Below are positions 7,828 through 54,923 of a stretch of 64,000 nucleotides of DNA, piece after piece; position 1 is the first letter of the stretch; each line of letters starts with the position of its first letter. The notes under the pieces were generated by a model. That model saw only the letters and a list, made by a program, of their open reading frames with translations, was not told the DNA's origin and ran no database searches. The stretch comes from Lachnospiraceae bacterium (GTDB lineage: Bacteria; Bacillota; Clostridia; Lachnospirales; Lachnospiraceae), in assembly GCA_024682375.1 (NCBI GenBank), contig JAIKZI010000066.1, positions 1 to 64,000 on the forward strand, read 5' to 3'. Position numbers and translations under genes: made by a program.

Positions 7828-7879
7828 TCCTTCTACATTATTTATACAAAAAATATATAGATTTTATAACATATAAATT

Positions 7880-8060
7880 CAGCAAAAAAGGATTGAATTA
7901 AGGCTTCGGTCGTAGAGTTTCTAATTTATCACGAATCTCTTTTTTTAACGCGAGAGCGAATAACTCGCTTCGCTCAAACATATCCGCTCTCGCTAAAAAG
8001 TAATTCGTGATAAATAAAAATCTCTACCTCCCTGCAGAAAAATTCAATCCTTTTTTGCTG
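7880..8060. repeat. Long nested inverted repeat IR-1 in the mutS2/rplQ convergent intergenic region
   Basis: Perfect 20-bp outer arms 7880-7899/8041-8060 (cagcaaaaaaggattgaatt), 13-bp arms 7924-7936/8003-8015, 9-bp arms 7950-7958/7985-7993. Confidence 0.9.
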
Positions 8061-8195
8061 TCTTTACATGTTCATATAATCTAAATATATTCAACATAAA
8101 TATATCTTCCAAAAACAAACTTACTATTTCCGCAACACTCCTACACCACCCTCCACCAATACTCATTAAATCAAAAAATTTCTCGCAGTATCAAA

Positions 8196-8482
8196 AAAGC
8201 ACTCTGCATTTTTGCAGGGTGCTTTGGGATTTTTTTGTATGTAATTGTATATTTTTCTCTATGACTATTTTTAGCGGAGTGAGCTAGAGATTCAATAGAA
8301 TATTTTTGTTTTTTAGCAATGATGAATATGTCTGAGCGAAGCGAGTTGTTCATCATTGCGTAAAAAAACTTAAAATATGATATTAGAATCTCTGTGAACG
8401 TAGAGTTTTAGTCATAGAGAAAAATATACACCTACATACTATAAAAATAAAAAAAGCACCCTGCAAAAATGCAGAGTGCTTT
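8196..8482. repeat. Long nested inverted repeat IR-2 in the mutS2/rplQ convergent intergenic region
   Basis: Perfect 30-bp outer arms 8196-8225/8453-8482, perfect 22-bp arms 8246-8267/8409-8430, perfect 11-bp inner arms 8316-8326/8349-8359. Confidence 0.92.
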
Positions 8483-23540: not shown

Positions 23541-23647
23541 CGTACTATTCGTACGACAAGTGGTGACTGTACACTTTCCCGTGTGTGTCCTACACAACAC
23601 GTTTGTTTCTACAACATGGTAGACATTATTTGTACAGTGACTTGTCG
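23541..23647 (-). promoter_or_regulatory. Structured 5' leader of the S10 operon (candidate autoregulatory RNA)
   Basis: Hairpin cgtac/gtacg at 23541-23555; long-range stem 23554-23561/23640-23647 plus 23566-23573/23631-23638 upstream of rpsJ. Confidence 0.55.
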
Positions 23648-23737
23648 CCAGTTTCTCGACTTGACATTCGCTCCACGGAGATACCTACCGAAGTAGCAAC
23701 TTCACGCTTCATCGCTATCAATGTCACAGCACAAATA

Positions 23738-48885: not shown

Positions 48886-51471
48886 TTAAATTTCAACAAT
48901 AAGTTTGTCAGAATCGGCATCATAATTTACTTTAAGGACTGATTTAGGTTTTACATTTCCTTCCAAAATAACCTTTGCAATCAAAGTCTCTACAGACTTT
49001 TCAAGGAATCTCTTCAAAGGTCTTGCACCAAACTGTGGTTCATAGCCCCTATCGCTAATATACTTTATAGCCGAATCACTAAGAACACATTCAAGTTCCT
49101 TATCTGCAAGTCTACGATTTAAATCCTTCATTTGAAGATCAATAATTCTATTGATATTATCTTTTGTCAGTGGCTTGAACATGATAATTTCATCCAAACG
49201 GTTTAAAAACTCCGGTCTGAATGAAGCCTTAAGTGTCATATCAACAGCAGTCCTTGCATCTTCAGTTATTTCTCCATCTTCGCCTATACCATTCAACAGA
49301 TTTTCAGAGCCGATATTAGATGTAAGAATAATAATTGTATTCTTGAAATCTACAGTTCTACCCTGTGAATCGGTAATTCGTCCATCATCTAGAACCTGGA
49401 GAAGAACATTCCATACATCCGGATGAGCTTTTTCCACTTCATCGAAAAGAACTACCGAATAAGGTTTTCTTCTAACGGCTTCTGTTAGCTGACCGCCTTC
49501 GTCATATCCAACATATCCCGGAGGAGCTCCAATTAGACGTGACACTGAATATTTCTCCATGTACTCCGACATGTCAATTCTGACCATGTTTGCTTCATTA
49601 TCAAAAAGTGTTGCAGCAAGTGTCTTTGCAAGTTCTGTCTTACCTACACCAGTAGGTCCCAAGAACAGGAATGAACCGATTGGCTTGGACGGATCTTTAA
49701 TACCTGCACGGGATCTGATAATAGATTCAGTAACAAGTTTTACTGCTTCATCCTGTCCAACAACTCTCTTATGAAGTTCAGTATCGAGATGAAGTACCTT
49801 GTTTCGTTCTGTTTCATTTAGCTTTGAAACTGGTATTCCCGTCCATCTGGAGACGATTTCTGCAATCTCATCTTCAGTAACATTCTCATGAATGAGCGAG
49901 ATATCCTTTACCTCGATATTCTTCTCTTCCTCTTCGAGTTTCTTCTCAAGCTCAGGCAGGCGACCATACTGAAGCTCGGCTGCCTTGTCTAAATTATATT
50001 CCTGCTTTGCTTTTGCGATTTCATTCTTTACAGATTCAATCTGTTCACGAAGCTCTGAAACACCAGTCAGAGACTTCTTCTCGTTATCCCACTGGGCCTT
50101 CATGACATTCAGTTTATCTTTGTACTCAGACAACTCTTTCTGAAGTTCAACAAGACGCTGTTTTGAAAGATTATCGGTTTCTTTTTTCAAAGCAGTCTCT
50201 TCGATTGAAAGCTGCATTACCTTACGATTAAGTTCATCCACTTCTTCTGGCATAGAATCCATTTCAGTCTTTATAGATGCGCAAGCCTCATCAACCAGGT
50301 CGATAGCCTTGTCAGGAAGGAATCTATCAGAAATATATCTATCGGAAAGTGTAGCCGCGGCGACAAGTGCAGCATCTGCAATCTTTACACCATGGAAAAC
50401 TTCATATCTGTCTTTCAAACCACGAAGGATAGATATAGTATCTTCGACTGTAGGTTCATCAATCATAACCGGCTGGAATCGTCTGGCCAAAGCGGAATCT
50501 TTTTCAATATTCTCACGATACTCGTTTAACGTCGTTGCACCGATACAGTGAAGCTCACCACGGGCAAGCATCGGCTTTAACATATTTCCTGCATCGAGAG
50601 AACCTTCTGTCTTTCCGGCACCGACTATAGTATGAAGTTCATCGATGAAGAGAATGATTTCGCCGTTTGAATTCTTCACTTCATTTAAAACAGCCTTCAA
50701 TCTCTCCTCGAACTCACCTCTATACTTTGCACCAGCGACGAGGGATCCCATTTCGAGGGAAAAAATCTTCTTATTCTTCAAATTGTCCGGCACATCGCCA
50801 TTTACAATACGCTGAGCCAGTCCTTCTACAGCAGCGGTCTTTCCTGTACCCGGTTCACCGATCAGGACAGGATTATTCTTTGTCTTTCTGGAAAGAATAC
50901 GGATGATATTTCTGATTTCTGAATCACGTCCGATTACAGGATCAAGCTTACCGTCACGAGCTCGCTCAACCATATCAAATCCATATTTTTCCAATGTATC
51001 ATATGTATCTTCTGGATTATCCGTAGTCACTTTCTGATTTCCTCTAACTTCAGACAACGCAGTGAGAAACCTCTCTCTGGTCAATCCGAATTCTTTAAAT
51101 TTGTTCTTTATAGTCTTGCTAGGTTTCTGGATCATCGCCAAAAACAGATGCTCGACAGAGACGTACTCGTCGCCCATAGCTCTAGCTTCATTTTCTGCAA
51201 AGTTCAGAGCATCGTTCAGCTCTCTACCCATGTAGATTTCTCCGCCACTTACCTTTGTAAGGCTGCGGACCATTTCTTCTACATCATTTTTAAAATAAGT
51301 CAGGTCTATTTCCATCTTCTCGATAAGTCTAGGAATCAGCCCGTCTTCCTGTCTGAGGAGCGCGAGTAGGAGATGCTCTTCAGTCAACTCCTGATTACCA
51401 TATTCGGAAGCGATACTAGAAATATCATTAATCGCTTCGATGGATTTCTGTGTAAATTTCTGGATATTCAT
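48886..51471 (-). CDS. clpB: ATP-dependent chaperone ClpB
   Basis: Two AAA Walker A motifs ([30 protein letters not shown]); coiled-coil middle domain; [15 protein letters not shown]-terminus. Confidence 0.97.
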
Positions 51472-51524: not shown

Positions 51525-51553
51525 GTTATAGCATCTTTTGTTAGCACTGTCAA
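51525..51553 (-). promoter_or_regulatory. Sigma-A promoter of clpB
   Basis: Minus strand TTGACA-N17-TATAAC. Confidence 0.85.
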
Positions 51554-51567
51554 CAGGTGAGTGCTAA
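51541..51567. promoter_or_regulatory. CIRCE element (HrcA operator)
   Basis: TTAGCACTG-TCAACAGGT-GAGTGCTAA; consensus TTAGCACTC-N9-GAGTGCTAA with one mismatch. Confidence 0.95.
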
Positions 51568-51889
51568 TTTTGTTGTTTCGTTAAAAAAGGTAATAAAATA
51601 AAGCCATCCAGCTGAAATAATGTTTTATTAACTGAGTTTCAAAGGCAATTAGTAAATCGACATTTTTGCTCGCTGTGCATCTTATCGATGCATCGAACAC
51701 CTGAAAACTCGCGGCTTTTCTTCTTATAAGGAAGTAGAAAAGCCGCTCAAACATCTTCAGGTGTTCGAACGAGCAAAAATCTCAATCAACTACTTGCACT
51801 TTTCAACTCAAAATAATAAAACACTATTTCATCTGGACAGCTTTTTTTCACCTTCCAAAATAAAACAACAAAATTAGCCCTCACCTGTT
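51552..51889. repeat. ~340-bp nested inverted repeat IR-3 upstream of clpB
   Basis: Outer arms 51552-51578/51863-51889 complementary at 26/27; further aligned arms inward; inner arms ttcgaacacctgaa-type/ttcaggtgttcgaa and gcggcttttct/agaaaagccgc. Confidence 0.92.
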
Positions 51890-51943: not shown

Positions 51944-52516
51944 TTATCTAACTCTATATTCAATTTCGTACTGGAATAAACTTTTCTTTAAACTAATTAT
52001 ACTATCTGAAGTCTTCCAATTATAACTTCTATCATTTTTATAATAATAAGGCTTCCCATAAAGAACGCAAAACTTAATCATATAATAATCATAAACTTTC
52101 ATTGTTGATGCTTCAAGACAGCTAGTTTTCACATTAACACCAATCAATGTACCATAGTCATCAAAATCATATTCCTTTTTCAAAACAACTAGTTTTTTAA
52201 AAATATGTTTAAGCGATTGAGTTTCCAGACGATTTTGATCTGTTTCCGTAACATCCTTTTTCTCAATTGCATTAATCTCGCTTATTTTAGTTTCCCCCCA
52301 TTTATATCCAGAATAATAGCCAGATTGATCTTTTATCCATACTATACGTATTAAAATAATTCCAAATAATAATACTGCTAATACAGATTTTGCAATGATT
52401 TTAAAATATTTACTTCGCTTCACATTATTTTTTATTTTTTTCCCACATTTTATACAATAATTATTTTCTAAATAAATCTCACTACCACAATAACCGCAAA
52501 ATACTTTTTTATTCAT
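51944..52516 (-). CDS. Zinc-ribbon, single-TM protein with extracytoplasmic domain
   Basis: CGYCGSEIYLENNYCIKCGKK; TM KIIAKSVLAVLLFGIILIRIV; YGKP...W C-terminal block. Confidence 0.75.
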   Translation of the reverse strand: MNKKVFCGYCGSEIYLENNYCIKCGKKIKNNVKRSKYFKIIAKSVLAVLLFGIILIRIVWIKDQSGYYSGYKWGETKISEINAIEKKDVTETDQNRLETQSLKHIFKKLVVLKKEYDFDDYGTLIGVNVKTSCLEASTMKVYDYYMIKFCVLYGKPYYYKNDRSYNWKTSDSIISLKKSLFQYEIEYRVR

Positions 52517-52532
52517 ATACTGCTTCCATTCA

Positions 52533-53117
52533 TTAATCCAAACTAATTCTTAATGTATTATCCAATTCATATATTTCAATATCGCCCTTAGACATCTCCC
52601 ACATACACCGATTGAGATTTTTTTCAGGTTCGCCATATTTTATTGTATATTTTTTTATTATATTTTTTTTAATCTGACTAATACTGTATATAGAAGCATC
52701 GCTTTCCTTAATTGTAACTAAAACACCCTCCAGCTTATCACCATCAAAATAATACTTGGCAAAGCCATTACATCCAGCAAACCCTTCAAAATTTGTAATT
52801 TTACTAACCCAAGTATCATCTTCTTTTTTTACTATACTATCATTGAAATCACTATTTTTTATTTCTTCTTTAGTACAGCCGCGCTTAATATCACCTAATA
52901 ACCAATCATTCTGCCTTTTTGATTCAAACATTGAAATAATCGATAATACAATCAATATTGTTAAAAAAAAGCAAAAAACAAAAATTTTCAAATTAGAATG
53001 TAAAGATTTTGAGGTTGTTTTTTTATTATGATTTTTAAATGATAAATTATCATATCCACATTTCATACAATATTGATAACCATCAGGTATTTTAGTTCCA
53101 CATCTTCCACAATACAT
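52533..53117 (-). CDS. Zinc-ribbon, single-TM protein with extracytoplasmic domain
   Basis: MYCGRCGTKIPDGYQYCMKCGYDN; TM LKIFVFCFFLTILIVLSIISMF; YGEP...W C-terminal block. Confidence 0.75.
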   Translation of the reverse strand: MYCGRCGTKIPDGYQYCMKCGYDNLSFKNHNKKTTSKSLHSNLKIFVFCFFLTILIVLSIISMFESKRQNDWLLGDIKRGCTKEEIKNSDFNDSIVKKEDDTWVSKITNFEGFAGCNGFAKYYFDGDKLEGVLVTIKESDASIYSISQIKKNIIKKYTIKYGEPEKNLNRCMWEMSKGDIEIYELDNTLRISLD

Positions 53118-53124
53118 AATCTAT

Positions 53125-53646
53125 TTACTCCACTTCACTTACAAAGACTTCTGCTTCCTTATAATTTGACGAGTTTTCAAACATAATTTCAAACTCCCTT
53201 GATTCACCCGGCCCTATTTCTTGATTATCATTAGTATAGTCACTACCAACTATGTCACCATTATAATCATAGAATTTTACCGTTACTTCATAATAAGAAA
53301 TTGTTTTACTATCACTTATATTTCGAACTTTTCCTGATATGGTATGATAATCCGTATAATAATCACTATATTCATCCCAATTAACAACTTCTAAATCATT
53401 AACAGTTGGCCGATACTTTTCTATAAGTTCATTATTTTTCTTTCGTTCTCTAGATGATTGAAATTCCATAAAACAAAAAAAGACCACCACAAAAGCAAGA
53501 GCTAAACCTAATAAAGTATTCAATTTTTTAACATGATTTAATGTCTTTATAGACTGCAATCTACTTCCACATTTTAAGCAGTACTGCATATCATCTGAAT
53601 AAAATTTTAAACACTTTTTACATCTTTTCATCAGCTTCCTCTTCAC
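53125..53646 (-). CDS. Zinc-ribbon, single-TM protein with FxLYD-like extracytoplasmic domain
   Basis: CKKCLKFYSDDMQYCLKCGSRL; TM; ISGKVRNISDSKTISYYEVTVKFYDYNGDIVGS. Confidence 0.72.
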   Translation of the reverse strand: MKRKLMKRCKKCLKFYSDDMQYCLKCGSRLQSIKTLNHVKKLNTLLGLALAFVVVFFCFMEFQSSRERKKNNELIEKYRPTVNDLEVVNWDEYSDYYTDYHTISGKVRNISDSKTISYYEVTVKFYDYNGDIVGSDYTNDNQEIGPGESREFEIMFENSSNYKEAEVFVSEVE

Positions 53647-53651
53647 TTATA

Positions 53652-54065
53652 TTATTTCATCAATCCCAACTTAATCAAAACAGCTGCAAAAAAGATTCCA
53701 ATTCCTCTAATCAACATAGCAAAAGCCACATATATTTTTCCCAAATCTTGATAGTATACCTCTGCAATTGAATCTCCACTTATTGACTCTATCTCCGACA
53801 TATCATTTCCTATAGTTCCAACTTTATATGCACCCCAGAAAAAAATACATAAAATAATAATAGCCAACAAAAAATAAATTCCTTTAATAAAACCATTTGA
53901 ATCTTCATTTTCTTTTGCAAGGACTACATGCTCATTTTGAATAGATTCTTTTTTTTCATAATCCAGTTTGTTTTCTTCTTTTTCAATTTCTTTTAAATCT
54001 AGTCCACAATTCTGACAAATCTTTTCTTCATTATTCACTTCGCTTCCACACTTAGGACAAAACAT
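53652..54065 (-). CDS. Zinc-ribbon membrane protein (two TM segments)
   Basis: MFCPKCGSEVNNEEKICQNCGLDL; two hydrophobic segments. Confidence 0.75.
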   Translation of the reverse strand: MFCPKCGSEVNNEEKICQNCGLDLKEIEKEENKLDYEKKESIQNEHVVLAKENEDSNGFIKGIYFLLAIIILCIFFWGAYKVGTIGNDMSEIESISGDSIAEVYYQDLGKIYVAFAMLIRGIGIFFAAVLIKLGLMK

Positions 54066-54395: not shown

Positions 54396-54653
54396 TTATT
54401 CATAATGTCCTTTACATGCAATTATTCTAATTCCATCTTCAGTGACATCATAAATTAATCTATCTTGTTCATTAATTCTGCGACTCCAAAAGCCGCTTAA
54501 GTTTTCCCCTAATGGCTCAGGCTTTCCAATACCTTCATATGGATTCCTCTGAGCATCCTTAATAAGTTTATTTATCTTCTTTAATGTCTTCTTATCCTGC
54601 GTTTGCCAGTACAGATAATCTTCCCAGCCTCTATCTTCCCATAGTAACCCCAA
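54396..54653 (-). CDS. Txe/YoeB-family type II toxin
   Basis: LLWEDRGWEDYLYWQTQDKKTLKKINKLIKDAQRNPYEGIGKPEPL...GFWSRRINEQDRLIYDV...CKGHYE. Confidence 0.93.
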   Translation of the reverse strand: MGLLWEDRGWEDYLYWQTQDKKTLKKINKLIKDAQRNPYEGIGKPEPLGENLSGFWSRRINEQDRLIYDVTEDGIRIIACKGHYE

Positions 54654-54656
54654 ACC

Positions 54657-54923
54657 TTACTCCTCCAGCAAATCATGCTCCTCAAAGTGCGCTTTACCAG
54701 TTTTAATATCATCTACTATTTTTTCTAAATACTCAATATTCTCCTTAGAATAAAACGGATCAGAAAGAGATACTTCAAACGGAATCCTCTGTTCTCTAGT
54801 CATCTTTTTTGCAAATATAGTAAATGCAGTCGTCATCGACATACCGAGCTTATCACACAATGTTTCCATTTCTTTCTTTAAATCAGAATCCAGTCTGAAG
54901 TTTACATTCACAGATCTTCCCAT
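54657..54923 (-). CDS. RelB/DinJ-family antitoxin
   Basis: VNVNFRLDSDLKKEMETLCDKLGMSMTTAFTIFAKKMTREQRIPFEV RHH domain. Confidence 0.92.
   Translation of the reverse strand: MGRSVNVNFRLDSDLKKEMETLCDKLGMSMTTAFTIFAKKMTREQRIPFEVSLSDPFYSKENIEYLEKIVDDIKTGKAHFEEHDLLEE

Follow-up and report, generated by a model that had tools for sequence, protein, structure and literature searches.

The clpB gene of this Lachnospirales-like bacterium lies on the minus strand of the window, by which we mean the whole stretch of 64,000 nucleotides analysed. A long imperfect hairpin, IR-3, adjoins the clpB promoter just upstream. The features of this locus are as follows.

48886-51471, minus strand: clpB gene
51525-51553, minus strand: clpB promoter as read from the sequence, with the -35 box TTGACA at 51548-51553, a 17-nt spacer and the -10 box TATAAC at 51525-51530
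51541-51567, no strand assigned: clpB CIRCE operator, TTAGCACTG-TCAACAGGT-GAGTGCTAA with an N9 spacer, one mismatch against the consensus
51552-51889, minus strand: IR-3, the whole imperfect hairpin element of 338 bases (RNA minimum free energy -181 kcal/mol, z -19)
51552-51578, plus strand: outer left arm, host flank that includes the CIRCE half GAGTGCTAA and is presumed original, 26/27 identical to the inverted distal arm
51863-51889, plus strand: outer right arm, repeating the CIRCE side in inverted orientation and containing TTAGCCCTC (51874-51882)
51634-51828, minus strand: IR-3 core, common to three other loci of the genome at 77-82% identity
51676-51692 (ends approximate), minus strand: side hairpin GATGCATCGATAAGATGC in one arm beside the tip, from the consensus structure
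51706-51753, minus strand: apical motif at the tip of the hairpin, TGTTTGAGCG-loop-GCGAGTT

The clpB operator and the adjoining hairpin

CIRCE was defined as two 9-bp halves, TTAGCACTC-N9-GAGTGCTAA, and the proximal clpB site is canonical: both halves are present around N9 upstream of a heat-shock gene, and an HrcA gene is encoded in the same genome (E 1.7e-61). Besides the clpB site, the genome holds four perfect CIRCE sites elsewhere. The -35 box of clpB sits within CIRCE. The automatic promoter scan missed this promoter, as its rule accepts only a T as the sixth base of the -10 box.

IR-3 begins in the CIRCE spacer, and its pairing is almost continuous from 51552 to 51889. Its folding energy is -181 kcal/mol as minus-strand RNA (z = -19) and -95 as DNA (z = -14), and no shuffled sequence came near either value. 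The arms 51552-51598 and 51843-51889 are 81% complementary, and the match is unevenly spread along them. The outermost 24 nt, AACAGGTGAG[T/G]GCTAATTTTGTTG, agree between the arms at 23 of 24 positions, while the values further inward are 14/24, 20/24 and 20/26, so that, within the outer and middle arms, no other stretch matches as well as the part with the CIRCE half. The drop from 23/24 to 14/24 makes the outer arm look like a separate, later event. An inverted match of 23/24 within about 400 bp is estimated to arise by chance with a probability of the order of 1e-7. Windowed values of arm identity are unreliable for the IR-3 family, because the side hairpin GATGCATCGATAAGATGC, which is nearly invariant across the four element copies described below, shifts the register.

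The sequence-only reading of this DNA had proposed that IR-3 repeats one half of the clpB CIRCE in inverted orientation some 330 bp away, in two distant arms. The mirrored half was confirmed: GAGTGCTAA at clpB is matched at 51874-51882 by TTAGCCCTC, its complement with one change, in a distal arm carrying TTAGCNCTC. The distance was measured as about 306 nt between the proximal and distal half-sites, shorter than proposed, and the two distant arms gave way to near-continuous pairing. Past the arm, the inverted similarity (ATGCTATAA, near the -10 box) was only marginal (p 0.03-0.19), and a longer inverted duplication taking in the -10 box was rejected on this ground.

Element copies, clpB orthologues and a second mirrored control element

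When the genome was searched with a 355-base query, the IR-3 core turned up at three more loci, with 77-82% identity: between prfC and recA, at an ornithine carbamoyltransferase gene and at a znuA-like locus. A covariance model (R1) built on the 149-nt core scores 156-171 bits at all four core copies. The same model gave no match in eight congeners or, within the family, in 298 other genera, where the larger searches were run with stricter filters; a contig search with the first, core-specific pattern and a plasmid search with the IR-3 hairpin also gave no match. The outer arm of the clpB copy is absent from its three paralogues (L002-L004). No direct target-site duplication was apparent on reading the ends of the clpB element, and no clear flank duplication was seen at the other three copies.

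Eleven other genomes, namely two congeners and nine other members of the family, have the same CIRCE with a very similar spacer upstream of their clpB gene. None of these orthologues carries an inverted copy of the 21-mer within the next 600 nt or up to the end of the record, and their best inverted matches have 8-10 mismatches vs one in IR-3. The 11 orthologues include none close enough to date the copying event, and in the congeners the sequence upstream of CIRCE has diverged too far for the insertion point to be placed exactly. Since the outer arm has no counterpart in the other element copies and CIRCE is kept in 11 orthologues without the inverted copy, the copying ran from the operator, half of which was duplicated, to the distal end of IR-3. 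On these comparisons, the CIRCE half within IR-3 is host sequence and not element sequence. A duplication or inversion of the promoter edge, which the sequence-only reading had offered as one of its explanations, is thereby supported, the CIRCE side being present without the distal arm in all 11 orthologues.

A comparable arrangement was found elsewhere in the window, where two further hairpins lie.

8196-8482, plus strand: second hairpin of the same kind, its outermost arms 8196-8225 and 8453-8482 being the rplQ terminator and its inverted copy
7868-8072, minus strand: third hairpin, sharing the apical motif (tip at 7962-7980)

The outermost AAAGCACTCTGCATTTTTGCAGGGTGCTTT of hairpin 8196-8482 has its exact complement at the other end (30/30), and the right-hand arm directly follows rplQ. 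Three congeners (G008, G006 and G007) have one terminator each after rplQ, each with its own sequence. The rplQ terminator mirrored to the far end of this hairpin is an independent second case of copying of a host control element. The two hairpins have opposite orientations and lie between convergent genes. The apical motif TGTYTGAGCG-loop-GCGARTT is common to both and to IR-3, although their stems differ from that of IR-3.

Proposed fold-back copying and competing explanations

We consider it fairly probable, at about 60%, that IR-3 is a non-coding MITE- or REP-like repeat whose CIRCE mirror duplicates, in inverted form, about 27 bp of the host flank, most likely by fold-back copying. During replication, the growing strand would already hold the CIRCE flank, one arm and the tip; it could then snap back upon itself, copy beyond its own arm into the CIRCE flank and go back to its template. 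The sequences show a repeat family, an operator segment of host origin, its inverted copy and the second case at rplQ; from these we infer the template switch itself, the direction of synthesis and the absence of HrcA function in the copy. In both cases, the end of the hairpin away from the flank bears an inverted copy of that flank, at 23/24 for the CIRCE side and 30/30 for the rplQ terminator, and fold-back copying at a hairpin-prone repeat would be their simplest common cause. Template switching at inverted repeats has been reported to homogenise the arms (PMC8604942). Quasipalindrome template switching and foldback inverted duplication (PMC8604942, PMC7467729) share with IR-3 the inverted flank copy beside a hairpin and the homogenised arms; those studies concern yeast, whereas the process proposed here is deduced from bacterial sequence and would act at the ends of a repeat element. 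The mirrored CIRCE half is most likely a by-product of copying and not a second working operator. Mirroring of host control elements onto the far ends of two hairpins in one window would be a direct route for hairpin growth, and would also scatter pieces of operators and terminators. Taken alone, the CIRCE copy is a curiosity; its wider value is as a marker of mechanism, and the wider class of hairpins is more interesting.

Among the other explanations, an RNA role survives best, although we regard it as doubtful. Transcription of the upstream gene would carry the hairpin into minus-strand RNA, where it would serve as a transcription barrier or a stable 3' end insulating clpB, with the CIRCE copy being incidental. 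This would agree with the orientation of the core, which is that of both flanking genes at the clpB, prfC-recA and ornithine carbamoyltransferase loci, and with the prfC-recA copy (L004 1447-1730), which begins about 1 nt past the prfC stop codon, at the position where two congeners (G008 and G004) hold an ordinary terminator after prfC. The prfC-recA region of the congeners is free of the element and too diverged to place the exact junction. The consensus structure contains 11 pairs with changes on both sides, and the sole terminator-like site that the scan placed between the upstream gene and clpB falls within the hairpin. The long stem, however, has no U-tract following it, and the two hairpins at 7868-8482 are oppositely oriented between convergent genes.

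The non-Watson-Crick pairs also bear on this question. In a strand-neutral count on the motif strand in this genome, 24 G.T pairs were found vs 19 A.C pairs, with no overall skew, and one element copy was skewed the opposite way (G.T 1 vs A.C 9). The lack of an overall G.T excess fits pairing at the DNA level rather than selection on RNA. The clpB copy taken alone, with G.T 11 vs A.C 3 on the minus strand, leaves room for RNA selection. An argument for RNA selection from the G.U excess at this copy was rejected, as the early scoring had favoured G.U, the strand-neutral count was 24:19 and the skew was reversed in the hairpins of genome G018 (9:28, also strand-neutral).

It is improbable that the outer arms belong to the element itself, which would have inserted at a CIRCE-like sequence by chance or by target preference, so that the half-site would be the element end. 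The arms do end neatly at the CIRCE spacer, but the other three copies lack this sequence and are not at CIRCE sites, the four perfect CIRCE sites of the genome gave no match to the 355-base query, and the CIRCE half and spacer are kept in clpB orthologues without the element.

We also find very little reason to regard the distal arm as a selected device that would tune clpB, by pairing with the CIRCE half as a cruciform or by giving HrcA a second contact. A cruciform extending to the -35 box is possible in principle, and its extrusion would disturb both this box and CIRCE, since both lie within reach of the arm; HrcA is encoded in the genome. The distal copy, however, is a lone half-site that fails the CIRCE definition: in TTAGCCCTC-N9-GATTATGCT, the second half agrees with GAGTGCTAA at only 3 of 9 positions, and a second HrcA site at this copy is unlikely in view of the missing partner half. 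The distal arm is also unconserved in relatives, and the same mirroring of outer arms occurs at the unrelated rplQ terminator. The second weak HrcA site suggested by the sequence-only reading was accordingly not supported; that reading had named relatives with CIRCE and no distal arm as evidence against its proposal, and the 11 clpB orthologues are of exactly this kind. Chance complementarity can be dismissed despite the AT-rich region, given the z values of -19 and -14, the absence of any equally stable shuffle and the 23/24 match of the outer arm.

Known repeats and the wider class of motif-capped hairpins

Bacterial MITEs such as Correia and QMITE (PMC10969869) resemble IR-3 in being short, non-coding, AT-rich, intergenic and multi-copy, with a strong stem-loop and a location near promoters, and the four copies at unrelated loci of one genome fit this description. 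IR-3 differs from them in being almost all stem, in having no visible direct target-site duplication and in that the outer arms of one copy are host sequence. No related transposase was found for IR-3, the search in this genome covering the Y1 family only. REP or GTAG-tagged palindromes associated with RAYT (PMC2817692, PMC3733652) are likewise intergenic palindromic repeats, presumably moved in trans, and some REPs carry loops of the GCGNAGC type (PMC2817692, PMC3733652). REPs are 20-40 bp long with a GTAG-type (or GTGG) tag, whereas the arms of IR-3 are about 140 nt long with the foot AACAGG and are untagged. PF01797 (Y1/RAYT), which would be expected with a RAYT-associated REP, gave 0 matches in this genome (G000, 94% complete). 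RAYT was also considered as the mover of the motif hairpins, with a Y1 transposase in 11 of the 16 motif genomes, and was rejected given its absence from this one; at all but one of the loci examined, there was no Y1 gene near the motif.

A gapped form of the apical motif occurs in 7 of 61 genomes, with about 24 matches vs 1 for the reversed control, and most of these matches cap hairpins whose arms measure 80-200 nt. An exact 19-mer with a GNA-type loop was found in at least 118 bacterial genome stretches; the matches listed come from Pseudomonadota, Bacteroidota, Bacillota, Fusobacteriota, Nitrospirota and Patescibacteria, and 81 of the 136 19-mer occurrences among them lie on extended hairpins. 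Long hairpins capped by the motif occur in six or more bacterial phyla. Among the 118 stretches listed, no protein family was shared beside the motif hairpins, and a phage search with a viral motif hairpin gave no match. IR-3 and the motif hairpins had no Rfam match at or above the gathering score, and the sub-threshold matches to miRNA families reflect hairpin shape only. A literature search with the 12-mer GAGCGAAGCGAG returned only unrelated papers, and we found no Rfam family or paper describing this class of motif-capped hairpins. The shared cap gives a simple handle on widespread long bacterial hairpins that are absent from Rfam and for which we found no description.

We tentatively raise, as a possibility that is on the whole unlikely, that these hairpins form a bacteria-wide superfamily with a shared cap and otherwise unrelated stems, which would spread or grow by fold-back DNA synthesis capturing the host flank as outer arm. 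If so, each copy would have its own self-complementary arms, and operators and terminators would be captured flank. The hairpins sharing this cap may be one family by descent or may have converged on it as a very stable structure.

Several genomes show particular arrangements of the motif. In genome G023, the motif caps eight hairpins whose arms (109-182 nt) are near-perfect; several have copy-specific outer arms, and many of the copies are delimited by short conserved sequences similar to AAAGTAGG and CCGGCCCC. Its near-perfect stems and copy-specific outer arms fit a repeated re-making of the arms by copying. Genome G018, from a different genus of the same family, has hairpins with the same cap at five loci, about 220-250 bp long and 88-94% alike. 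In Marinobacter, Haemophilus and Variovorax, the motif occurs in pairs of opposed orientation with a spacing of about 180-260 bp, which resembles the layout of BIMEs. One contig (C319) of congener G004 carries three motif copies among Bacteroidales-like genes and is possibly contamination of the bin.

Elsewhere in the window, four consecutive small genes lie upstream of clpB on the minus strand (51944-54065), each with CxxC zinc-ribbon-like motifs near its start and also with a likely transmembrane stretch. At 54396-54923, also on the minus strand, lies what on reading is a likely toxin-antitoxin pair of the RelB/DinJ-YoeB type. An S10-Clostridia ribosomal protein leader (Rfam RF03136) was recognized at 23642-23720 on the minus strand.
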